From Purpureocillium takamizusanense (lineage: Eukaryota > Ascomycota > Sordariomycetes > Hypocreales > Ophiocordycipitaceae), in the NCBI RefSeq assembly GCF_022605165.1, contig NC_063080.1, positions 248,001-312,000 on the forward strand: a DNA stretch of 64,000 nt, read 5' to 3'. The notes under the pieces are model-generated. The model did no database searches and was not told where the DNA came from. It saw only the letters and a program-made list of their open reading frames with translations. A program made the translations under genes and the position numbers. Below are positions 36,165 through 51,292 of this stretch, piece after piece; the stretch's first letter is position 1, and the number at the start of each line of letters is the position of its first letter.

Positions 36165-39100
36165 TCACGACAAAACCCTCAGAGTCCCCCGATGCGCAGC
36201 CTGGGCCCGCGTCAAAGCCTCATCGACTCGATCTCGAAACGCCGCATCCCCGTCCCCCTCGACCTCGGCGTCGTACTGACGCACAATATCTAGCGTTTCT
36301 TGGATCCGCGTAATGCGGGATTCGATGATAGACGTCATGTTTTCTTGCATCTCGTCGGCAAGCTCGCGGAAGTCTCGCCGCCACTGGCTCATCGTCTCCG
36401 TAAAGAGCCTCTCCTGGGCCAGCCGTCGCCGTATGATGGCCTTTCGGCGAGAGTCACTTCCTCGTCCTAAACAAGTCCACCCATCAGCAAAAAAGCGCAT
36501 GCGGACCAAAGAACACGTGCCGCCGATATGTGGGATATGGGAAGCAGCAAGCATCGTGTCTTTTTTTGGGTTCTGTGCTTACCGCCCTCAAAGTTACATT
36601 CTCGATAAGAGCCTTCCATGGCTCTTCCGATGAAAGATGTCCTGATGCCAGACAAGGCATCTGTTTGCAGCGAGCTAGGGCCATGTAGCGGGTTAATATG
36701 TACCGACGTAGGACCCCTTGGGTAGTTCAATGCATGCCACGTACCTCAGCTTTTCCTCCAGGTCCATGTAGGCCTCCTCAACGCTGCTCATCGCCATGTC
36801 CAGATGATTCTCAAGCGCCTGAATAAACGGGAGCACTACGTCCCCGATAGCATCAGATTGTACCTCTGGCGCGTTTGGTCAGCTGGTTTGCATGCAACAG
36901 CGAAGATACGTAGCAGCCCGTGCTCCGACAAAGCCGTCCCAACTGCACCGAAACCAAGAACCCATCCTCCCAAAGCATCGAAATAGTGAAGTTGAAGAAT
37001 TTGAACATACCCAAGTGCGAGATGATCCTATCAAGCAGCTGCTCGATGAGACGGACAACAGCCCCATGCTGGGCCCTCACCGTTCTGCGCACAGCGTCCC
37101 AGGGCTCGCTGACACATTGAACCATGCCGGCGATGATTTCTTCGTTCCAGTTGCATCGCCCTGCGGCCTCGGTACGGTGTATGCCATAGTTTCGGCAGAA
37201 AGCGGAGTAAGTTGCTATAAAGGGTGACAATCAGCCGTCGCTCTTCGTATGTACTACGCCTCATAGTGGTGAGGCAATGTATTTGCCTACGGTGGTACCA
37301 CTGCCGAGTTTCAGTAAACCACATTACCTGGGGCGTGACATGACCAACGATCCAATGCTTACCTGCTCCCACTTCAATCCGGCGTTCTGAGCTGCCCGGC
37401 TCCAATGCAGCGTATTGCGCGCTTGATACACGCAAGGTTAGTTCAACCCGGGCCCTCGTGTATAAATATCCGTCTCCAACGTACGGGTATAAAGCTCCTC
37501 GTCAAAGCATCGCTTCGCAGCCCTTCCCACAGTTTGGGCGGCGGACCTGCGTGACATCAGATCCTACGACAGTCTGTTAGTACGCAACGCAGTGAGGCAG
37601 CCATGCACACAAACCTACTCCTGTCAACCAACCTTCAATCGTGTCCAGAGCGTCGCGAAGCTCATGTCCCATCTCTGAACCAGCGTTTTCGGCCGTCGAT
37701 TGAACCCACAGCTGAATCTCAGCAAGGAGCGCCGGCACCTTGTGCTTCATGTAGTGCGTCGCGGCAGCATGCTGGCTCGTGGACACGATGGCAATGCAAT
37801 GACGCCGCACAGCCATAATGCTACTAAGGTGAAGGTAAGGCAGAGCATCGTTGCTCGGCTTGTCGCGGCTGTCCCAGTAGAGTTTGTTGCTGACGCAGAA
37901 GACTGCGACTTCGCCGGTAGGCGCGGAGGAGAGATACACGTCAATCAACGCTTGTGTGACATCTTTGTTGCGGACGTCGATGATGTACTTTTTCAGCCTG
38001 AACAATGACAGTTGTGTCAGCGACTGAGCGTGGAAGATTCGCCATGGAGGCAATCAGGAACAAGCTAGCACTGACTCAAACTCGGCTTCCTCCCTGCGTT
38101 TCCTGCAATGTAAAGTTAGACTACGTGAGTGCAAGTTAGGCCAGAAATTCGTTCAAGGGCAATACTAACGCGGCTTGGAACTTTTCGCGGCTCAATTGGT
38201 TGAGCTCGTCCTGCTCATCGATCGAGAGAGTAGGCGCGGACGCTAATTCTTCAATATCCTCGTCTATGCGACTGCAATCTCTAGTCTCGATATCGAGATT
38301 TGTCATCCGGCGTCGGATTGCCTGCGCTCGTTCGCCCCTATAGTCTCGAACCGCTTCTGTCGGCTCAATGACCTGCCCGTCCACTCCAAATTAGCCATAC
38401 CCTAGGGTATTTAGTACAGAGTTGAAGAGGTACACACGTCCGATTTGGTGCAGATAATGCCGACTCGAGAGAGACCAGCGGGCCGGGCAAGGTCAAAGAC
38501 ATCTCGGACTCCTTGGTCAGTAGTAGCCCTGTCAATGTTGCACGTGACAAATATCTCATTGCATTGGCGAAGGAATCGCTCCGTGACATTTCTGCGAGCT
38601 GCGTTTGTATCGCGGAGTCCTGGACAGATATGTAAATGAGGATTGTGTTTTGGCGAGACTACAAATATAGCCCTGCATGGTTCGTACCTGGTAGGTCGAC
38701 CAAAACGAGGCCTTTACTTAGTATGTGGGCATTGAGAAAGACCCTGCGGGTAGTTTGTTAGTGTCGTAAATCTTAGGAGCTTGGTTCAATCTCGGAGAGC
38801 TTACTTGATACTACGGATGCATGGCCAGATGGAGGGTTCGTTGGAAGATGGCCGCTCTGACGAAAGGCTTGCTAGCAGAGCCGAGCAACTCTCCACTGTA
38901 AGCCCGGGTCTAGGGGCCGTTGGCTCTGACCGGAGCAGAGTTACTGTCCAACTCTTCAAGTTATTGAGAACGCTAGTCTCCAGGTCGCTGAGTAGAAAAG
39001 TCTCATCTTGGAGACGTCCACGGAATAAAGCCCGAAAGGTATCCAACGCCAATTGTGCATCGGCCTGAAGCTGGTCTCTCGCCTCGGGATCCGTGTTGCT

Positions 39101-40125
39101 CATTTCGCCGCTGTCTATGGCTTGTTGTAAAAAATGGAATTGTCGGTAGGCATGAAGCATGTTGCTCAGCTGTTCCGTGAGCTCGTCCACGCTGAACAAG
39201 TCCACTTGGACAGTGAGGGTTGGAGACTGGTGATACCGGTATTCCGTCGCCACGCAGGTGCAAGCCGCACCCGAGGTACTCTGTAGTGCTGGTCAGACCT
39301 TTGGCTCTACTGGCGTGTTTTGGGATAAAGAGTTGTTGCTCGTACCGCTCGCGCGAGGTCTTTAAAGTCAAGCAGCGAGTTGAGCAGACTGCTTTTGCCT
39401 GTTGTAGAAGTAGCGTGATGAGTATTTCTGCCTTTGACACGTGGGAGTATAAGCTCACCGGCGCCAGTGCCTCCCACAAATGCTACTGTCCTCGTAGAAG
39501 GACAATTAAAGGAGGCCAAGTCTTGCGCCTCATTGCGCAAGCGATGCATTATAGAACCAGTGTCATTATGCAGGGAACCGCTTTCCAATGCCACCACGAT
39601 GTCGGCCATGAGCCCTTTCGTATTGCGAAATGCATCCTGAAAGCCTGTCTCGTTGAAGGCGTCTTGCGGTGGCTCCTCGTCTGTTACTTGGTGGCGGACC
39701 GCCAGAGGGCGGGAGCTCGAGCGTCGTCCGCGAGAGCTCCGGCGCGATGTGCGGTCCCCGCTTCCGTTGGTAGGCGCTTCAACTTGCAACGGAGGCCTCG
39801 TGCTCGACTGCTCCGCCGTGATGTTGTTAATAGCGGCAGTGACACTGTTCATATCCAGTTGATCCGGGCTAGATAGGTGCACCTGTTGCATGTCTCGACT
39901 CAACTGTTCAGCCGGCGAAGGCCGCCTATCTTGGCCAACATGGTCGTACTCGTCCTCAGAGTCCGATGTACTCGGAGTGGAAGGCACACTCGGGGACGGA
40001 GCCGAGGTCACAGTAACTCGAGGTGCTGCAGAGTCGCCCCGACGGGCTTCAAACGCAATCGGGGGTTCGGTCAACATGTCCGCCGAGGAGGGACCTTCCA
40101 CAGAGGGTAGCGGTACGTCGGCCAT
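36165..40125 (-). CDS. SLIP-GC-like large P-loop GTPase, 16 exons
   Basis: Dynamin-type GTPase resembling nuclear GTPase SLIP-GC. Model, 980 residues: 40125-39459, 39398-39346, 39280-38805, 38743-38688, 38619-38438, 38372-38170, 38102-38076, 37997-37619, 37563-37485, 37421-37363, 37300-37291, 37214-37011, 36942-36910, 36865-36745, 36674-36583, 36466-36165. The P-loop GGTGAGKSSLLNSLLD is split by intron 1; then GAACTCVATEY (switch region), VLVDLPGLRDTNAARRNVTE (G3, near 412-420) and ICTKSD (G4, ending at D478). The C-terminal half is helical (DVVLPFIQALENHLDMAMSS, WRRDFRELADEMQENMTSII). The first 200 residues are disordered and S/P/R-rich. Exon 11 is only 10 bases. In vertebrates SLIP-GC acts in germinal-centre B cells; the fungal role is unknown. 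Exons 7, 9-13 are the least certain. Confidence 0.75.
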
Positions 40126-40969: not shown

Positions 40970-42097
40970 ATGTTGCCCCGACGCAGAGTGACTTGTTGCT
41001 TCCGCCCACCGAGCGTCACAGCGAATAGTCGCAAGCCAGATGCGCGTCGCCGACATGCCATGGGCGGCGAGCAACAAACGTTGCCCCTGCCCCCGCTCGA
41101 CGCGGCGTGGGATCCCACGCTACCGACTAACGACGACGACGAGTACTGTTGGACGCCGCTGCAGCTCGCGGCGCGAGGCGGCGACCTCGACACGATGCGC
41201 AAGATCCTCCACGCCCACCCTTGTGCTGCCGTAAATGATTCCCCGCGTGGCTACTACGGCCAGACGGCGCTCCAAGCGGCGTGCATGCAAGGGCATGACG
41301 AGGCGGTGCGGCTGTTGGTCGCTGCCGGGGCGGATGTCCACGCCATGGGCGGGAACAACATGCAGCGCAACGCGCTTCAGATTGCCTGCGGTCAGGGAAA
41401 CGAAAGGGTCGTGGACGTTCTCCTCGATGCGGGCGCTAGGGTGGAAGAGCGGCGGTCCTCGTCGCCTCGTGCGGACGGGGGCGTCGTGTCACAACGAGGC
41501 CGTCCATCAGACACCCCGACTTGCTCCACAGCCATCGTGGCAAGGTATAACGGACGCACGGCCCTGCAAGCCGCCTCGGAGCGCGGCCACGAGCGCATCG
41601 TCCGCAGACTCCTGCACCTCGGCGCCGACGTCAACGCCCCCGCATCGCCCACAGCGGGCCTCACCGCGCTGCAGGCCGCGGCCAGCAACGGCTTCACCCC
41701 CATCGTGCGGCTCCTCCTGCGCCACGGCGCGGACGCCAACGCCGCGCCCGCCCGGACAAAGGGCCACACGGCCCTGCAGGGGGCGTGCCTGCGCGGGCAC
41801 CTCGACGTCGTGGACGTGCTGCTCAACGAGGCGGGCGCCGACGTGGACGCGTGGGGCGGCGCGTGGGGCGGTGCCGACGAAGGGGGCACGGCTTTACATG
41901 CGGCAGCGGAGAAGGGCCATGTGGACGTCGTGAGGAGGCTGCTGCGCGCGGGGGCGGATGTGAATGCTTGCGGTGCGAGGAGAAGGCAGACGGCGGTGCA
42001 GAGCGCGGCGGCGGGGGGCCATGAGGAGGTGGTGCGGGTGTTGAGAGAATGGGGGGCGCGAGGGGGGACGGGAGGGGGACGGTTTCTGTTTTCGTAG
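40970..42097 (+). CDS. Ankyrin-repeat protein
   Basis: Protein-protein interaction protein made of ankyrin repeats, single exon, up to 375 residues. At least seven repeats are visible, each with a TALQxA or TPLQLA turn and a following AGADV: WTPLQLAARGGDLDTMRKIL, QTALQAACMQGHDEAVRLLV, NALQIACGQGNERVVDVLL, RTALQAASERGHERIVRRLL, TALQAAASNGFTPIVRLLL, HTALQGACLRGHLDVVDVLL, TALHAAAEKGHVDVVRRLL and a last partial one. The repeats are very alike, as in recent internal duplication. No other domain is present, so it is either a stand-alone ankyrin protein or the remaining part of a larger NLR-type protein. The start may be 41060 (better Kozak context, CCATGG) rather than 40970. Confidence 0.8.
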   Translation: MLPRRRVTCCFRPPSVTANSRKPDARRRHAMGGEQQTLPLPPLDAAWDPTLPTNDDDEYCWTPLQLAARGGDLDTMRKILHAHPCAAVNDSPRGYYGQTALQAACMQGHDEAVRLLVAAGADVHAMGGNNMQRNALQIACGQGNERVVDVLLDAGARVEERRSSSPRADGGVVSQRGRPSDTPTCSTAIVARYNGRTALQAASERGHERIVRRLLHLGADVNAPASPTAGLTALQAAASNGFTPIVRLLLRHGADANAAPARTKGHTALQGACLRGHLDVVDVLLNEAGADVDAWGGAWGGADEGGTALHAAAEKGHVDVVRRLLRAGADVNACGARRRQTAVQSAAAGGHEEVVRVLREWGARGGTGGGRFLFS

Positions 42098-42985
42098 ACT
42101 GGGAAAGCGTGTCGTGGCGGCCTGGAGGGTTTGGAGCGGCATGCAAGGTGAAGATGGTAAAGACGAGTCGTATGTTGGGTGCACGTAGAGGATAACGACC
42201 AGGCTGGGCTGCGTGGCACAAACAATCCACTATATCCCATGGTAGCAGACGTGGATGGCGATGTAATTTACGCCTTAAAGCTCTTTATATGCTACAGAGC
42301 TTATAGGATATGAACAGCAGAGCCATCTCGGGCACTCTACCCGAATATATATTATACTAACCATACCGAGTCTTGATCTAACTAAGTCATTATATAGATG
42401 AGATACACTTAATATAATAAGAGCGAGAATATAATATAAAGATCTTATAAGAGAGAACTCCTTAACGCTAAAAGTATATAATACACTATAATGTATATAG
42501 AGTTAGACGTAATACGTAATAATTATATATCAGACGCGGGGGTTCTACCGATAAAAATTTGCGCGGACCTTGACCTGATGCTCGACTCAATTAGAAATCG
42601 GATGGATGCTAGCGGGGCTATTGCGGGTTATGCAAGATACTGGAAAGAGAAATCGCTAGAGAACGTACGTGCCGTGCCAGAGGGTGTCACAACACGTCCG
42701 GGGTAGTTTATTAGCCCCCAATACGCGGTTTCAGCTCTTCGATGCAATATTTTTGCTGCCTAACCAGCCCAATTCTGCGAGCTAACTGCAGCCCCCAGGT
42801 AAACTTGACACTTTATATGATTTGGTCTTCGCCCCGTCCCTGGAAAGTTTTCTTCCCTACATTATCTGTTGAGATAAAACGACAACCCACTCTTTTCAGG
42901 TGATATACTTCGTGCACACATCGACATCAGTCCTGTCGCCGTCTAGCATCGCGCCACAACGAGGACCCTTTCATAGGCGAACAAC
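42098..42985. other. Intergenic, contains AT-rich island
   Basis: No supported gene. The first 130 bases after the ankyrin gene are normal in composition; 42240-42540 is very AT-rich (separate entry); the remainder leads to the kinase gene. Confidence 0.6.
42240..42540. repeat. AT-rich island, possible RIP-decayed repeat remnant
   Basis: About 300 bases dense in TA steps (TATAT, ATAATATA, TTATATAGAT), in sharp contrast to the GC-rich surroundings. Repeat-induced point mutation in ascomycetes turns CA into TA in duplicated DNA and leaves such islands. No terminal repeats or transposase frame remain, so the origin is inference. Confidence 0.5.
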
Positions 42986-45955
42986 ATGATGTCGTCTGCC
43001 TTGGGCCTGAGGCGGCGTTGCGCCACGTCAACTGTTCAAAAGAAGTATGACAAGCGCCTTAACAGTAGCTTAGATTCCTTTCCTCAGGTGAATGCGAAAT
43101 ACCCTCATCCCCTTTACGTTAGATTTGAGGTCTTCGAGAGAATTTTGTTGGAGCCAACGCTTCGTGGCTTAGCCATGGCCGAATTTGACCTACGAGAGCG
43201 AGAGCTGAACAGATTCGCATGTGTCATCTTCTTTCGATGGTCATGGGCTTCTGATGTACTCCGAGGCCTTCTTGCCGAACTTGAAGAGAGAGCGATTCGG
43301 GATATCCACGGCGGGTCCCATCAGGTGGCCTTCGACACGGCCATGGCCCAACTCAGGCTGCGGCAGGATGACATCGTATTCGGTGATCGGAGATGGAATC
43401 GAGTCTCCAAGTTCGTCGATGACAATGCATCCTTCATAAACGCTCTTCAGAAGCCCAATTTCGACCTAGACTCCATTATTGTGGCCCCTCACCCGGCCGA
43501 TTTCTTAATTTGGAAGAAGATTGCTTGCCTTTTTGTGGAGAGACACGACACGATATCGCGGATTCCGGGCTTTTTTGCGGTAGAAAGGCTTGCTCGATCT
43601 GATAACGAAACTGAAATACCGCTTTCTGCCGAGTACTGGGAAGACAAGGGCGCTGAATTCGACCAACCCGCACCATTCGCTGATCCCACGATCGAACTGA
43701 ACCAGAAGCCAACGGACGCCATCAGCTATCTTCTCGACATTCCAGGCACCACCACTCGTTTGCTTGATGCAGCCGACACATGGCATGTGTGGGTCTTCTG
43801 TCGACAAATGCGACTTCAGACGAAGAACTCGCGCTGCCAGCAAGAATTTGAGATGCTTGAATCATCCAACTCCTTTGCAGATGAATGGCAAGTGTTAGAG
43901 TGTCAAAGCATCCACAAGAAGCAAAAGACATTTCTTTCTCGAAGAAAATTCACCAAACTGATATTACCAGTAAGCTTGAAAATTGGAGTAAAGGCTTCCT
44001 TCCGCATTCTAATTTGTTCAAGAGTATCCCTGGCATATATAGCACCGCAGATGATGAATATGTAAGTATAGAATTCGTTGGATCTCATTTGCATCTGATA
44101 CTACTATACACACTAGAAGAACAGCTAAATACTGATTCAGATCCCATATTTTAGTTCTTCTGGTTTCACCAAGAAGCGGTGCATTTTTCACAACTGACGC
44201 CGCCATGTCTTACCGTCGAATTTGTGCCTTGGAATGAACTCAGAGATGTAACAGACATTTCAAGCACAGATGGCCTCGATGATTTGTCTTTTCATCAGGA
44301 TCTGCGTGGTGGGCAATGGAAAACACGGGATACTTCGGCGGATCACGCAACAAAAATGGCGCAGAGTCTGTATCTGACAGAAGACTTGTTCACGCCGCAT
44401 GTTTTTGAAAGCTATCAATACCCTGGGATTCTCCATCATGGCTCAACTCTATTCCGCTGCAGCGAATTGAGTTCTACCGACTTCTGCGCAACTTTGCGCA
44501 CGTTCTGGGCCGTATGGGTAAGCCTTTAAAAAAATGAGATCCATATGAAAACGCGGAGGCCAGTCCTGCTTAAAAAAAAAATAACCTTCCACAGAACGAT
44601 TGCGCAATTACATACAATCGCCAGGAAGGCACTTTCTACCTGCTGGAAACAGCGCCAGGGATAAAGAGGCGTTCGCTAGCAACGACTTACAGCGAAGACG
44701 CTGCCCTGCAATTTTATGAATCGAAATGGCGTGATCACTTATCTTTAAAGGAGCAGAGGGACAACCTGAGACGCCTTTTAGGCCAAGAATATGACCCAGT
44801 CTACGAGGATTTCCTCAAATATGTCCCGCCTTCAAGGCTTCAGCTGGACTCGGCGGAGAGAGTGGGAGAGGGGTCATTTGGATTCGTTTACAAGACAGCT
44901 TGGGAGTATAACCATGGTCAAGCCACGGAAGGTGACGTGAAGACTAAGTTTGTGGCCCTGAAGCTGATCAAAGATGCGGATGATATGGACCCTCTGCGGC
45001 CGACGGGGATTAAATTCTTCAAGGAAGTAAATCCCACCACTCTCTTATCAACTTGGAAGAGGGTACTCACACATTAACTTGTTAGCTTGCAGTGACCTAC
45101 AAAGCCTTGGTAGGGCAAACTGTGGATCTGGTAAGGCTGATTGGCTTTACCATGGTCTCCCCCAATGATTTCAAGGGCAAACGCGTCAGTAGTAGGACAT
45201 CAGGACCCGAAGAGGCACCTGCTTTCGTTTTCGAATATGCGTCCGAGGGTTCAATCCTTGCACACTTGGACCGTGTGCTTCAGCCCAACGCTCTCATGGA
45301 GAATTGGAAGATTATTCACCGGGCCATTCTTTCTATTGCCCGGGCATTAAGCTCCATACACGACAGAAACGTCATCCATGGGTACGTATACAAGCAGTGA
45401 CTTGCAGCGCACAACCACTGATGAGCATGAAACAGTGATTTGCACGCCAACAACATCTTGGTCGAGCGCTCAACCTTTGAGTCTGGGGAAGTCGAATTCG
45501 ACTTCTTGCTTTCGGACTTGGGGGAAGCCAAATTTCAGCGCAGCTCACTAACCCACACGACCTCAGGCGAGCTTGTCGGTATCCATACCTCGGAACAAGC
45601 CATAATGGAGGCCGGCAAAGCAAAAGACATGTATGATTGGGGTCGGCTGGCAGCCATCGTTATACGGACGTATCAAGACCTGCTCGCCGGTCCCCACGGG
45701 GCTATCAGGTGCCCGTTTAGTATCCTTTCGGCAATCCACGCTTGCTTAGCACCGGAAGCAAAGTATAGGCTCAACGCTGGAGGTGTGGTTATGATCCTCG
45801 AGCCGTTGTCAGTCGCTTTTGTGGATTGTAATCCGGAAGAGGTGACGTGGAGTGATGAGGATGCGGATCTCAGCGAGGCAATAGACCGTGCTGACACCTC
45901 GGCCCATTCAACGGAGAGCATGATGGCTCGGATTCTTTCTTCTTCTACTTTGTAG
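42986..45955 (+). CDS. Non-RD protein kinase with large N-terminal domain
   Basis: Predicted cytosolic protein kinase, 877 residues. Model: 42986-43969, 44023-44061, 44155-44517, 44595-45026, 45086-45381, 45436-45955; all phases agree. Residues 1 to about 545 form a long region I do not recognise (PHPLYVRFEVFERILLEPTL, FFWFHQEAVHFSQLTPPC). The kinase domain follows: glycine loop VGEGSFGFVY 552-561, VALK with K585, helix C glutamate in FFKELAVTYKAL, catalytic loop IHGDLHANNIL (H704, D706, N711) and LSDLGEAKF with D732. The residue before the catalytic Asp is Gly, so it is a non-RD kinase, and DFG is DLG; all catalytic residues are kept. A 53-base intron (GTAAGC, branch TCTAAT, AAG) explains an apparent frame change near 43970. 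It is convergent with the pseudokinase gene. Confidence 0.75.
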
Positions 45956-46306
45956 CTATCAATCTTTTCGGACTGCAAGAGAAACAAATGCCCAGAAATG
46001 ACTTCTTGAAATCCATCTCACACTAAAACCGATTGTGAGTATTGAGGCGTGGTTTGTGCTGACCCAAAGCAACGTTCAGCCAGCATCAATACATGTACAA
46101 TGAGGAATACGGTAACATTGGTACACCAAAATTCGGGGTTCGTGTTAAACAGTAATTCATGTTCCTGTGAATATTCCAAAGACTAAAGTGAGTACTGTAT
46201 TTTCGATATGCCAATCGACCCGCCGCAGCAACAAAACCCACCACAGGAGTACAATTCTAGTCAAGTCATCGTGGCGCGACTACAGGAGATAACGGCCTCT
46301 TGGTTG
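45956..46306. other. Short gap between convergent kinase and pseudokinase genes
   Basis: 351 bases between the two stop codons, holding both 3' ends. No further gene. Overlapping 3' transcripts are possible at this spacing. Confidence 0.6.
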
Positions 46307-48426
46307 TCAACCACTTTCCCTTTCCCTTCTCGCTGCTTCCCCTAGCTTGAGGTAGTATTGCGCCATTATCGTATGCGCACGTACAAGCTCAGCCAGTGCA
46401 TTCACCTCCCCCCCTTCATGTGCTGCTTGAAAGTGCGCGATGGATGCTAAGATTTGTCGGACTTGATTGAAGAGGGTATTGTGAGTTCCCGTGTATATCA
46501 GCAAAATAGGCTTCGGTTGGAACAAGACTCACGCTTTGGGTCTGCTGTCGACGCGACAGTTGTATCACCTTCGACAGTGCAGTGTAAGTACACAAGTCCG
46601 ACTGCCATGGAGATGTGAGGGTCCCCATCCCTCCCCGCCTCATCAATCAGAGGTTGCAGAACAGAATACGCGTATGTTTTCCTGTCCATTCTAGAACGCC
46701 ATGAGTCCTTTTTCGAGGCCGTTTTGCCGCGTCCAGATGTCTTTGCCGCTTGTTCGCGAGCCTCGCTTTCCGCCTTGTGTATTTCAACCTCCCTGGTGAT
46801 TTCGTTGGCGCGTTTTCGCAGTGTCTCGGACTCTCTCGCTCTAGTGCCGTCTTCAACATCTCTAAGCCCCGACTTTACCGCGTGTAAAAGTTCAAAAAAG
46901 GTTTGGGCAACATGAGAGGCCGTCTTCGTTCGTTCCAGCGGGTTTTCTTCACAACACTCCTTTATGACCATCCAAATGGCACTTGCCACGCTGTGGTGAG
47001 AGCCTTGCGCAGAGAAAACCCCTGATCGTAGAAGGCCATCCCCTGGCTTTACTAAGCTGCCGGCGACTGACGCTGGTTCCATGTCGAAGAATAGCACGGC
47101 AAGGACGACTCCGAGTCTGATTCACTCCCGTGGTCAGCCAGTATGCTTATCAAACTTTGACCAGAACTCACGTCCATATATCCGACCGCAACGAGTGCAT
47201 CGCGACTCCATCACGTGTCGAAATTTTGATCTCTGGGGCCTCAAACCGCGGATCTTGTTGATCTCGCGAGGTGACCTCCCAAATCTGTCTGCAGTTAGTG
47301 AAGCTGAAATGCCATAAGCCTTCAAGCAAGCCAGAGAACCATACCGCTCTGGCCTTCCCCAGATTGGTGATTTTGGGTCGCAAAACATTGTTGGACCCTC
47401 CTGACTCCTGAATACAGATGTTGGTATCGCACAGAATTTTGATGACTATGTGAGCAGCATGAAGGGCGGAGACGGTTGCCGCCAATTCGTATGCAATACT
47501 TAGCCTCTCGGGCAGAGTTACCTTTGCCCACAACATCTTATTGGATCTTCTTTTGGCAAGCGTTGAGTCCGCCCGGAGGCTTTCCATCAGGGCGTATTTG
47601 ACCCCTTCGAACTCAGTGATGGCCAGGAATTTCTGGACCAACGCCACGTTGCCAATCAACCTGTAAACTTTGACTATCTGACCAAGTTGATCGGCAGGAG
47701 CGCGTTGAATACGCTCGAACGTTGCGGGTTTATCGTAATAGGTTCCGAGGAGAGGTCGTCCCTCAGCAGTGCTGGATGTAATTGTGACAGAGCTATGCGG
47801 CAGTGGAATAAATTCTGGCACACCCTGCTCCACAAGGCGTTTGTGTAGAATTGTAATTTCTCCTCTCAATTCCGAGATCTGATGGAGAAATTGCACTCGG
47901 TGCTCCCTAGCCTCCTCGGCGGTTACGTTCAGATTTGCATCGATTAATGGGAGACGCGAGGTAGAGCCATGAATGGTCATCTACAATGTCGTAAGCAGCG
48001 TTTTATATCGAAGAAGAGGACCAAAACGAGGCGTAAAGGGAGGGCATTTACCAGAATTTCCGCGGTAAAAGATCGTTGGATGCGATCTAGACGTGCTTTC
48101 AAGTCTTGGAACCGAGCTTGACTGATTCTTTCCCAACCGACGTGATAGATGTTCCCAGACTTGCATTCTTCAAAGAAACGCGTAACCTCTTGGAGGCATT
48201 GATGGAAAGCAGAGGCGGACTTGACCTGTTGGAGTGTGTTTCGAGACTCTTCGTACGTTTTCGACAGCGCAATGCAAATATTCGCAAGCTCGTGGCATTC
48301 TTTTGGAAAATGACAAACGCCCTGGACCCCGGAGATCAAGTTTTTGACAATCGATGCTATGGCTGAAGCGTTGGGCAAAATCGCCGCTTCCAACTGAAGC
48401 CAGTCAACAGAGGTAGAAAGCGACAT
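46307..48426 (-). CDS. MLKL-like protein: helical bundle, coiled-coil brace, pseudokinase
   Basis: Predicted cell-death executor or scaffold, 620 residues. Model: 48426-48052, 47980-47345, 47284-47172, 47116-46533, 46461-46307; all phases agree. Residues 1-125 are helical with the spacing of an MLKL/HeLo-like four-helix bundle (CHELANICIALSKTYEESRN, FHQCLQEVTRFFEECKSG, FQDLKARLDRIQRSF). Residues 146-176 are a coiled coil (FLHQISELRGEITILHKRL) like the MLKL brace. The pseudokinase has LPERLSIAYELAATVSALH; where HRDxxxxN is expected it has IKILCDTN (305-312), and DFG is replaced by NLG (N331). APEIK and SDIWTLGVVL (activation segment end and helix F) remain. The catalytic Asp and the metal-binding Asp are both lost, so it should be inactive. 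The C-terminal 180 residues are helical. The MLKL assignment is inference from layout. Confidence 0.7.
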
Positions 48427-50293
48427 GGCGAGGCAAAGCCGTGACGAGTGATGTTTTCTTTCATTCAGCCTGGACTACGACGAAATCGAGTATTCGAACT
48501 GAAGCAATCGATGGGTCCTCTGGCCAATTCGAGAAGCACAGTGAGGCTGCCGCGATGAAGCGCGCTAGTTCGGAAAACGCTCACGCTGCAGGAAGCCAGA
48601 GGCGACAGGCTTCTTTTTTTTTTTTCCTGCAAGCCCTCGTTCTTCGGAACGGGGACGTCGGCGGCGGACGGGGGAGACCAGATGCTCGGGTTGGCGCGAC
48701 CGGCTCATTAACATGGTGGCCGAGGCGTGCCTGCGGGGAGGAGGAGGAGGACAGTCGACACATGGCAGAGGCAGAGGAGGCCTGCAAGGCAACGAGGCAG
48801 TCTGGCGACCTGCAGGACATTCCGGGCGACATGATCAAGGTCATGGATGCCGGGCGATGCCATCCGGACTGTATGGGGGCCAGGAGACCAGCGCTCTTGC
48901 GACTCGGGCCATGAGGACGGGCAAACGTGGTCTTGCGAGTGGGCGGCATCAGGCTGGCCAGACCACTGCAGCGCCTCAGCCCCGGTCTCACGTACTCTAC
49001 CATAGTTGTAGTACCTGTAGTTAGGTACCTAGTAACGTACTACCTAAGGTACCTAGGTAAGGTTTATGTAACTGTAGTAGGCTAGGTGCTACCTGTAAGT
49101 TGGTTGCATCCATGCTGTGGCTACAGCTGCATGACCGGCCCGCCGTGGCACAAACCACCTGAGGATTTTCTGGGGACTGGAGGGCCTGCAGCGACAGCGA
49201 CCTTCCACACGCCCACCAACCGACCGATGCAGTGCACGGGCAGCCCAACGCCCCAACTCCCGTCATCTTTCGTCACGCCGCCATAGTCGTCCTGAAGCCC
49301 GCCCCTCGAGCGCGACGACTGGTCGTGGGCGGCCAGCACCTCGGGGCTCTCATCTAGTCCCAAGCATGCAACGTTCAAATTTGGGCCTCCCGCATTCTGT
49401 GCTGGTCTCCCTCTTGTGCGGTCTTCATGGTTGGGGGGGGGGGGCGGGTCGCCTGATGATGCACGCTGGGCCCCCCTGCCGACCGGCGCAATTGAGACCG
49501 GGCTGCCTTCTGCTGGAGGCTGGGCTGCAGTCGCAATTGCAGCCAATCTGGGCCGCCCCCAGGCTGCTGCAGGAAGCAAGGCGGCCTGCGGGCGGCGCGT
49601 GGTCGGAACCCCATCGCGGGCTGTTGGGCGACGGCCGCGATGCGCCACCGGGCTGCCTACTACCTAGATAACCAATAAGGCTTCTTACGGGGACGTGGGC
49701 CGGAGCAATAAACACCATGGAAATCAGTGGCAGGCGTGGATCGCGGTAGACTTTTCGCCTCCAAACCGTCTCCACACGCGTCGCGCTGCAATACAGCCGC
49801 ATGCCGCCCCCACTGTTCAGGGTGGGATGGCGACGCGCGACACACAGCCGCAGCAGCTCACGAAATCACGAGCAAGACGCACATTGCAAACAACGCTTGG
49901 TTATGGATGTTTGAGCCATGGTACAAGTAGGCGTCCGCCGCGAGGCTCAGCCCTGCCCAGATCCTCCCCCGGCGAAAGAATCCAACAATGCCTAACGCCT
50001 CTCTATACCGCCGTCTAAGCCAAAAAGTCTTTATCCAAAGGGGTATAAGAATGCTGCATCCCATGTCCCCCATGCCCACCCATGCCCTCCCCCCTTTCCA
50101 TGCGCCCGCAAAAATAGTCCCGAAACGCCACCTCCCATCCGTATATACAACAGTCAAACACCATACTCATCTGCACACAAAGTCAGCACAATGCTCATCG
50201 TCCATGGTCAGCGGCAATCACCACGTACCAAACATCGACCTCTGCACGAGCCCCCTCCAACACACGCACCCTTGCCGCCATGATGATGGCCTC
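48427..50293. other. Intergenic region
   Basis: 1.9 kb with no supported gene. Contains a T run at 48616-48625, a palindromic cluster at 49010-49110 and a G run at 49434-49443. A 175-codon minus-strand frame (49121-49648) has random composition and is not called. Confidence 0.45.
49010..49110. repeat. Cluster of GGTACCTA-type inverted repeats
   Basis: TAGGTACCTA, CTACCTAAGGTACCTAGGTA and related palindromic words follow each other over about 100 bases. Similar words occur singly near 7945 (ACTACCTAAGTTAGTACC) and 60230 (AGTACCTAAGTTGG). They could fold as hairpins in single strands. Confidence 0.55.
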
Positions 50294-51292
50294 TCACGAG
50301 GACTTGGGCGGAACACCAGGCGAGCCCTCGTCCTTGTCAAAGTCAAAGACAAAGTCGGGGAGCTTGCCCTTGATGCCCGAGACGGAGCGCTCGAGGTTCC
50401 AGGCAAACTGGTCGTCGCGGATGGCCATGGTGGCCTCGCCAAAGTCGTACGAGGTGAGGTTGTCGCGCAGCTCCTCGTCGGGGAAGCCATTCCAGGAGAC
50501 GAGGTCGCTGCGCCACCAGACGCCCTTGTGGTTCTCGGGGGGCTCGTCGGTGGCGCCCTTGCTCCAGCGCATGTAGTGGGTGCCGATGAGGCCGTCCTTG
50601 TTGTAGACGACCTTGACGTGCGAGGTCCCGTCGAGGGGGATGTCCTGCCACAGGCGGGCGTCCCAGCCGCCGTGCTGGCTGACGGCGCCGAAGCGCGGCT
50701 TGCCGTCTTTCGTCCAGACGACGACGTGCTCCCAGTCGTACTGGTGGCCGATGCAGATGCGGTCGCCAATGTCCTTTTCGAAGAAGTAGTCGTACAGGTA
50801 GGCGCACCACCCATTGTTGCACCGCTGCCGCGAGTACACGTTGGAGTGGTCGAGGTCGTACTCGTCGCGGCAGCCGTCGATGTCGTGCTCGTGGCGCGAC
50901 CGGCCCTGGTCGATGTGCCCGCGCGGGCCGATGGCCGGCACGTTGTAGCACGAGTCCGTGTCGAAGTCCATGGCCGGCTGCCACTTCTTGTCGAGGGCGG
51001 TGGCGCGCGCGGGGAGGGGGTCAGGAGGGTTCTCGTCGAAGCCGTGGTCGTCGCAGAGACCCTGCGCGGCCTGCGTCGAGGAGATGCGGAAGACGCCCCC
51101 CTGGAAGGTGGTGTAGTTGTAGGTGTTGTCGTCGAGGACGGGACGCGGCGCGGTGTTGTTGTTGTTGTTGTTGTTGTTGTTGGTGGCGTTGGCGTTGCGC
51201 GGGTAGATGGACGGCGTGTAAGTGCCGTACGCGCAAGAGGCCAGAGAGAGGGAGCTGGCCAACGCGCCCTTGATGGAAAGTGACCGAACCAT
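50294..51292 (-). CDS. Secreted NPP1/NLP-family necrosis-inducing-like protein
   Basis: Extracellular protein of the Nep1-like family, many of which permeabilise plant plasma membranes; others are non-cytolytic. Single exon, 332 residues. Residues 1 to about 22 form a signal peptide (SLSLASCAYG end). An Asn run at about 37-46 is coded by an AAC repeat. The NLP fold markers follow: a cysteine pair region (DTDSCYNVPAI, CRDEYD, RQRCNNGWCAYLYDYFFEKD), and the heptapeptide site, here GHQYDWEHVVVW near 181-192. The family consensus is GHRHDWE, so the central His is Tyr and the Arg is Gln while Asp and Glu are kept. SHVKVVYNKDGLIGTHYMR and the closing FGEATMAIRDDQFAWNLERS fit the family. Whether it is toxic cannot be told; the changed heptapeptide argues for caution. 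A TATA-like run (51634-51644, minus) suggests a leader of about 300 bases. Confidence 0.9.
   Translation of the reverse strand: MVRSLSIKGALASSLSLASCAYGTYTPSIYPRNANATNNNNNNNNNTAPRPVLDDNTYNYTTFQGGVFRISSTQAAQGLCDDHGFDENPPDPLPARATALDKKWQPAMDFDTDSCYNVPAIGPRGHIDQGRSRHEHDIDGCRDEYDLDHSNVYSRQRCNNGWCAYLYDYFFEKDIGDRICIGHQYDWEHVVVWTKDGKPRFGAVSQHGGWDARLWQDIPLDGTSHVKVVYNKDGLIGTHYMRWSKGATDEPPENHKGVWWRSDLVSWNGFPDEELRDNLTSYDFGEATMAIRDDQFAWNLERSVSGIKGKLPDFVFDFDKDEGSPGVPPKSS

Follow-up and report, generated by a model that had tools for sequence, protein, structure and literature searches.

Animals, plants, and fungi all possess bundle-type death domains, and kinase control has been worked out for animal MLKL; plant MLKLs also join a bundle to a kinase-like domain. 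Among fungi, two-gene death modules that pair a presumed sensor with a bundle-type executioner, such as NWD2/HET-S, have been described (PMC9815663, PMC7885112), and a 2025 review mentions an MLKL-like architecture in which HELL occurs with a kinase or pseudokinase (PMC12881547). In our literature search, we came across no account of an active kinase gene linked to that of a fungal MLKL-like protein. Here, we analyzed a 64,000-nucleotide window of the Purpureocillium takamizusanense genome (NC_063080.1, positions 248,001-312,000), which carries a convergent pair of genes encoding a kinase and a pseudokinase. As judged from sequences and modeled folds, the pair may hint at necroptosis-like death by phosphorylation in some fungi. 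The original prediction, in which the pair was read as a possible necroptosis-type module, is partly supported.

The gene models of the pair were built by hand from GT-AG introns, and the rebuilt spliced models reproduce the tail-to-tail arrangement and the stop-to-stop distance that had been proposed (Table 1). Both products exceed the Pfam PF00069 cut-off of 31.7 bits (40.4 for the plus-strand protein and 34.6 for the minus-strand protein). In addition, the minus-strand model is supported by a 626-aa protein of Monosporascus sp. CRB-8-3 (DL769_008968, here P0001) that aligns over 100% of the length with 46% identity.

Table 1 Positions of the gene pair and its domains within the window
Feature	Position	Strand	Basis
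Kinase gene, 6 exons, 871 aa	42986-43899, 43971-44061, 44155-44517, 44595-45026, 45086-45381, 45436-45955	+	Spliced model; homologue DL769_008969
Residues 1-305 (kinase exon 1), orphan N terminus	42986..43899	+	48% identical to Monosporascus; without Pfam match
TKL-like protein kinase domain, ~residues 541-830	44847..45829	+	Pfam, PDB profile search, motifs
Spacer, stop codon to stop codon, 351 bases	45956..46306	.	Gene models
Pseudokinase gene, 5 exons, 620 aa	48426-48052, 47980-47345, 47284-47172, 47116-46533, 46461-46307	-	Spliced model; homologue DL769_008968
Pseudokinase-gene exon 1, predicted N-terminal helical bundle, residues 1-125	48052..48426	-	Homologue AlphaFold model; 58% identical to Monosporascus
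Linker at ~residues 143-178, predicted to be helical (coiled coil or brace-like)	47822..47929	-	Low-confidence homologue model
Pseudokinase domain, ~residues 190-450	46891..47788	-	Pfam PF00069 1.7e-8; motifs; HeLo-linked pseudokinase profile match
Codons of Thr342-Ser343, activation segment	47267..47272	-	Identical in Monosporascus
C-terminal helical, TPR-like region, ~170 residues	46310..46890	-	Homologue model; 31% identical to Monosporascus

The plus-strand protein has its own homologue in Monosporascus sp. CRB-8-3 (DL769_008969, here P0002; E 1.3e-195), and about half of the residues are identical between the two species along both proteins. These homologues were the sole matches in protein searches that each scored the 8000 candidates with the most words in common with the query; since scoring was confined to those candidates, the family may have further members. 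Four further kinase-domain proteins from a two-row profile search (E 0.4-0.9) were taken as chance matches. Because the two locus tags are consecutive and their contigs are equally long (42420), we infer that the homologues are neighbors in Monosporascus. Adjacency in related species, which the original prediction named as a check, is thus indicated by the tags of one other genome. Within P. takamizusanense itself, the search for paralogues of the pair found none, with one weak kinase match at C1:4425287; the alignment for the minus-strand protein covered three of the five minus-strand exons, and the kinase alignment was built from four of the six plus-strand exons, one of them trimmed.

The kinase domain of the plus-strand protein matches PF07714 (5.1e-11) and PF00069 (3e-10) and displays a Gly-rich loop (GEGSFGFV) as well as the motifs VALK, HGDLHANN, and SDLG. 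Motif inspection (HGDLHANN, DLG) agrees with the earlier claim that this kinase keeps its catalytic residues, with HGD and DLG. The catalytic Lys, Asp, and Asn are retained in the kinases of both species, as is, by eye, the helix-C Glu, and the plus-strand kinase is probably active. A clear APE is absent and the activation segment is shortened, the stretch from DLG to the Y-x-W-G motif being a net 10 residues shorter than in the Monosporascus kinase (a gap of 14 residues less an insertion of 4). In the PDB profile search, RIPK1 chains came first (8e-5), nearly tied with one EGFR chain (8.2e-5) and B-Raf (1.6e-4); on balance, the sequence points to a TKL-like kinase, and a RIPK identity is not supported. 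A RHIM-bearing RIPK homologue was rejected, as the [VI]Q[VILC]G core is absent from both proteins and their homologues. For the approximately 540 residues preceding the kinase domain, Pfam gave no family up to E 1, and at the same threshold the whole protein matched kinase-type families alone, with no NLR or protease sensor.

In the minus-strand protein, a pseudokinase follows a predicted helical domain at the N terminus and a linker also predicted to be helical, and is itself followed by a stretch modeled as helical in the homologue. In the AlphaFold model of its Monosporascus homologue, the bundle helices span residues 5-15, 19-33, 40-63, 70-89, and 97-125, and eight of the ten ten-residue blocks between residues 21 and 120 have pLDDT values of 73-81, the remaining two having 64 and 59. 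The predicted fold of the homologue is an N-terminal helical bundle of about 120 residues, as had been anticipated. Among its structural matches in the PDB are the executioner domain of MLKL and RPW8/CC domains from plants (7l7v, NRC2, NRC3, and Rx), and residues 1-121 of MLKL superpose on residues 16-128 of the model (111 residues aligned) with a middling structural Z. Three of the 11 N-terminal structural rows (6w2v, 9y6s, and 8up1) are of other than the MLKL/CC kind. HET-s HeLo structures are not among the structural rows listed, which is no argument against the bundle reading. In the homologue's linker region, helices are predicted at 144-155 and 160-190 with low confidence, and the models of the P0001 pseudokinase part (pLDDT ~30) and of the whole of P0002 (mean 35) were too poor for use.

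Membership of the bundle in MLKL, HeLo, or HELL was not found by sequence. Pfam returned no MLKL-type family match up to E 1, and when the bundle profile was searched against the PDB up to E 10, none of the three matches was an MLKL chain. Similarly, neither HeLo (PF14479) nor HELL (PF17111) matched the full window protein or exon 1 alone (to E 1) or the Monosporascus homologue (to E 10), genome searches with the HeLo and HELL profiles did not list the window gene, and an hhalign comparison of the bundle with three HeLo-pseudokinases gave prob 0.7.

The pseudokinase domain has indeed lost both catalytic aspartates, VIKILCDTN replacing HRD and NLG replacing DFG, and both are likewise missing in the Monosporascus homologue. 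The Gly-rich loop and the beta-3 Lys are not recognizable by eye, while the catalytic-loop Asn, APE, and an SDIW motif are retained, and Thr342 and Ser343 are candidate phosphoacceptors. In a profile-profile comparison, the domain matched HeLo-linked pseudokinases with prob 94.6. DUF7580 (PF24476), a family for which our literature search found no papers, scored 24.4 bits in the Monosporascus homologue, below the curated cut-off of 27, and had no match in the window protein up to E 1. Regarding the MLKL-like domain order, the succession of predicted bundle, predicted helical linker, and dead kinase holds, whereas the pseudokinase does not form the end of the protein, as about 170 residues lie beyond it.

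All four Pfam-HeLo genes found in the P. takamizusanense genome are HeLo-pseudokinase fusions, and a kinase gene adjoins two of them, the neighboring kinases carrying ankyrin/WW (C2) and Hsp70 (C4). The alignment of these fusions has three rows, the C1 HeLo gene being split over pieces and omitted. An estimate of how often kinases would lie so close by chance used a 6-kb limit picked after the distances were seen and a null of uniform positions, and its kinase lists were incomplete (123 of 207 first-look candidates scored) and missed the window's own kinase. Its figures for 3/5 and 3/10, in which the C5 protease gene and the window pair are counted, are not taken as evidence. A local kinase search (eight seed sequences, E 1e-4, ~10 kb or less per side) found the C2, C4, and C5 kinases alone, all of them among the seeds.

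The leading mechanism, to which we give slightly less than even credence, is a kinase-triggered two-gene module of regulated cell death. The plus-strand protein would act as an upstream sensor-kinase whose large N-terminal region detects a trigger, and the minus-strand protein would be the executioner, in which the pseudokinase and helical linker form a latch that restrains the bundle and relays the signal. Phosphorylation of the pseudokinase by the plus-strand kinase, with Thr342/Ser343 in the activation segment as the most plausible sites, would expose the bundle and lead to oligomerization, and the released bundle would permeabilize a membrane.

The minus-strand protein could also be a bundle executioner that is not triggered by phosphorylation, its partner kinase binding and restraining it as a heterodimer or serving as a guarded antidote; killing would then be freed when the kinase is lost or altered, as in allorecognition or a poison-antidote pair. 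Convergent linkage and co-occurrence would suit any two-component pair, and the kinase, with its shortened activation segment, suits a role less reliant on catalysis. Moreover, the pair is unlike its neighbors in composition (GC3 0.53-0.55 versus 0.72-0.93 in seven other ORFs of the window), which would suit a unit that is accessory or was acquired. However, both species retain the catalytic Lys, Asp, and Asn and, by eye, the helix-C Glu, which counts against pure binding since selection would not require them for it. We consider this alternative unlikely. A little less probable again is that both are ordinary signaling or scaffold proteins held together by shared regional ancestry, the bundle being an adaptor rather than a membrane killer. 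The bundle's lack of a sequence match to HeLo, HELL, or MLKL and its middling structural Z would fit an adaptor. So would the fact that no N-terminal helix is strongly hydrophobic (in 19-residue windows stepped by 3 residues, the best Kyte-Doolittle mean is 1.27), but the structural matches taken together (to MLKL, RPW8, NRC, and Rx), the profile link to HeLo-fused pseudokinases, and the deviating composition of the pair argue against it.

It is improbable that the genes are decaying or mis-modeled, with a kinase degenerating in this strain and a pair now functionless. While the shortened activation segment and an adjoining AT-rich stretch with RIP-like dinucleotide indices could be taken as signs of decay, the exons are long and open, the introns are GT-AG, no stop interrupts the frames, and identity to Monosporascus extends along both proteins. 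The AT-rich stretch at 42230-42600 was rejected as a repeated element, as it occurs at one place in the genome.

Extended beyond this locus, the kinase-triggered mechanism would mean that fungi have phosphorylation-triggered necroptosis in recurrent two-gene units, where a sensor-joined active kinase phosphorylates a neighboring bundle-pseudokinase executioner, the sensor parts being the orphan N terminus in the window, ankyrin/WW on C2, and Hsp70 on C4; we regard this generalization as doubtful. If true, RIPK3-MLKL-like logic would be encoded in pairs of genes that need neither NLRs nor amyloids. With a kinase gene kept beside a bundle-pseudokinase gene, the age of kinase-controlled necroptosis becomes testable with two genes, and the four HeLo-pseudokinase genes of the same genome, two of them beside kinase genes, are ready comparisons.

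Comparing the pair with MLKL/RIPK3 of animal necroptosis, the same order of predicted bundle, predicted helical linker, and pseudokinase is present together with a possible TKL-like kinase partner. However, the window bundle has no sequence match to MLKL, an extra C-terminal helical region follows the pseudokinase, the kinase combines a long N terminus without a known domain with the lack of a RHIM-like core, and the window genes are linked. With plant MLKLs and RPW8/CC helper NLRs, the pair shares the predicted bundle fold (matches to 7l7v, NRC2, NRC3, and Rx), although the PDB search revealed no sequence similarity of the window bundle to them and Pfam places no NLR domain in either window protein. 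NWD2/HET-S and related fungal two-gene death modules likewise link a presumed sensor to a bundle-type executioner, whereas the window partner is a kinase rather than an NLR and no RHIM-type core, the amyloid motif checked, is present. While the window protein has no Pfam HeLo/HELL match and a sub-threshold DUF7580 appears in its homologue only, it shares with the fungal HeLo-pseudokinase (DUF7580-type) proteins a death-type bundle followed by a pseudokinase, and the pseudokinase profiles match.

The window is fungal sequence with short GT-AG introns, located at C13:248001-312000 of a genome of 35.57 Mb in 14 contigs, and gene models assembled by hand reveal a convergent pair, a kinase gene and a pseudokinase gene, with 351 bases separating their stops. 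In the plus protein, the kinase domain (Pfam PF07714, 5.1e-11; PF00069, 3e-10) follows about 540 residues for which no Pfam match was found. The minus protein comprises a 125-residue first exon encoding a predicted MLKL-like helical bundle, a helical linker, a kinase-like domain (Pfam PF00069, 1.7e-8), and about 170 more residues.

Features of the pair, its surroundings, and related loci in the same genome (window positions unless a contig is prefixed)
Feature	Coordinates	Strand	Remarks
Kinase gene	42986-45955	+	6 exons, 871 aa, hand-built model
Pseudokinase gene	48426-46307	-	5 exons, 620 aa, hand-built model
Lower-GC island	42200-48550		Low GC3; contains the pair
AT-rich stretch	42230-42600		RIP-like dinucleotide indices; matches one place only in genome
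Ankyrin-repeat protein	40970-42097	+	Upstream of kinase gene
Probable large P-loop GTPase gene	36180-40125	-	GGTGAG...GKSSLLNSLL motif interrupted by apparent intron; first exon gives no match in Pfam; likeness to dynamin judged by eye only
NPP1 (necrosis-inducing) family gene	50297-51292	-	PF05630, 2e-50
C2 locus	C2:4896001-4906000
C2 kinase match	C2:4897188-4897691	+	No N-lobe recognized
C2 HeLo match	C2:4902963-4903634	-	HeLo profile
C4 locus	C4:902001-912000
C5 locus	C5:1953001-1963000

The plus protein retains the motifs GEGSFGFV, VALK, HGDLHANN, and SDLG. In the minus protein, the motifs VIKILCDTN and TNLGK indicate that both catalytic aspartates are missing, while the catalytic-loop Asn, APE, and SDIW are retained. 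The original prediction had placed a kinase with catalytic residues (HGD, DLG) beside a partner without both aspartates, and its coordinates, description of the pair, and motif assignments are all confirmed by the rebuilt models. In a profile search of the plus kinase against the PDB, RIPK1 chains ranked top (8e-5), level with a single EGFR chain (8.2e-5) and closely followed by B-Raf (1.6e-4); we read the kinase on this basis as TKL-like and claim no orthology.

Each protein had a sole homologue among the sequences found, both in Monosporascus sp. CRB-8-3. For the minus protein it is DL769_008968 (626 aa), which is 46% identical and covers 100% of the query. For the plus protein it is DL769_008969 (727 aa); the best local alignment spans 47% of the query at 49% identity, and identity in the full alignment is 50%. 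As the two locus tags are consecutive and each is listed on a contig of 42420 bases, we infer that these genes adjoin each other. The proposed RIPK3-MLKL-like module is supported in part, with the neighbouring homologues in its favor. Identity to DL769_008968 is 72/124 aligned residues in the bundle, 26/55 in the linker, 145/265 in the pseudokinase, and 50/161 in the C terminus; for DL769_008969 it is 144/298 in the N terminus and 135/260 in the kinase. DL769_008968 lacks the same two aspartates, and DL769_008969 retains its catalytic aspartates. A reservation about the window kinase as an active enzyme is that, between DLG and Y-x-W-G, it is a net 10 residues shorter than DL769_008969 and shows no clear APE. 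DL769_008969 for its part lacks residues ~305-455 of the window model and part of the N-lobe, which we take as an annotation difference.

Profile searches of the source genome found HeLo in at least four genes (C1:4825k, C2:4903k, C4:910k, and C7:74k) and DUF7580 in at least eight places; the DUF7580 match of DL769_008968 is subthreshold (24.4 bits versus a cut-off of 27). All four HeLo genes found carry a kinase-like domain in which, by eye, HRD is replaced by HKG/HKS and the DFG Asp is displaced. In profile comparisons, the window pseudokinase matched three of these (probability 94.6, E 7.1e-8) and its neighbour kinase hardly at all (probability 1.9, E 0.025), and it thus groups with the fungal HeLo-linked pseudokinases. 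The window bundle has either diverged past sequence detection or has another origin.

The GC3 of the pair is 0.53-0.55, versus 0.72-0.93 in seven other window ORFs, and the island has edges near 42.2 and 48.5 kb. Together with the finding of no paralogues of the pair in the source genome, this suggests an accessory or acquired unit. The window also holds genes for a MutS-type protein and a diphthamide-synthesis protein.

We infer every functional step of the favored reading, a sensor kinase paired with an executioner. The plus kinase would phosphorylate the pseudokinase, with Thr342-Ser343 as candidate sites; in the alignment these lie inside the activation segment and are identical in the window and Monosporascus proteins. 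Phosphorylation would release the bundle, which may then permeabilize the membrane. The main rivals are that the kinase restrains its partner in an antidote-like manner, or that both are ordinary signaling proteins held together by ancestry. Earlier work describes MLKL-family homologues with Sel1 repeats in Glomeromycotina (PMC8778642) and protein kinase among the N-terminal domain classes of fungal NLRs (PMC4986451). Pairing of an active kinase gene with a bundle-pseudokinase gene was not found described in the literature searched or in the passages covered, which come from these two papers, PMC12881547 (including section 18), PMC10197012, PMC9815663, and PMC7885112. The bundle-pseudokinase kind is already known, and the linked kinase is the novel and testable element.

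A kinase gene also adjoins two of the four HeLo-pseudokinase genes found in the source genome. The C2 neighbour, convergent with the HeLo-pseudokinase gene, is a series of open frames that probably form a single gene and encode an HGD kinase, ankyrin repeats, and a WW domain. At C4, an Hsp70-kinase fusion gene (HRD, DFG) stands head to head with the HeLo-pseudokinase gene of that locus. No kinase was found within 10 kb of the C7 and C1 genes in incomplete kinase lists, and a limited local search added none. About 4% of random points have a listed kinase no more than 6 kb away, which gives a binomial value of 0.009 for two of four, with the 6-kb limit set after seeing the distances. At C5, another DUF7580 gene joins its pseudokinase to a subtilase (S8 protease), and a kinase-like open frame lies nearby; this frame has a degenerate HCN motif and adjoins a TPR-bearing frame. 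The C5 locus resembles protease-controlled death modules.
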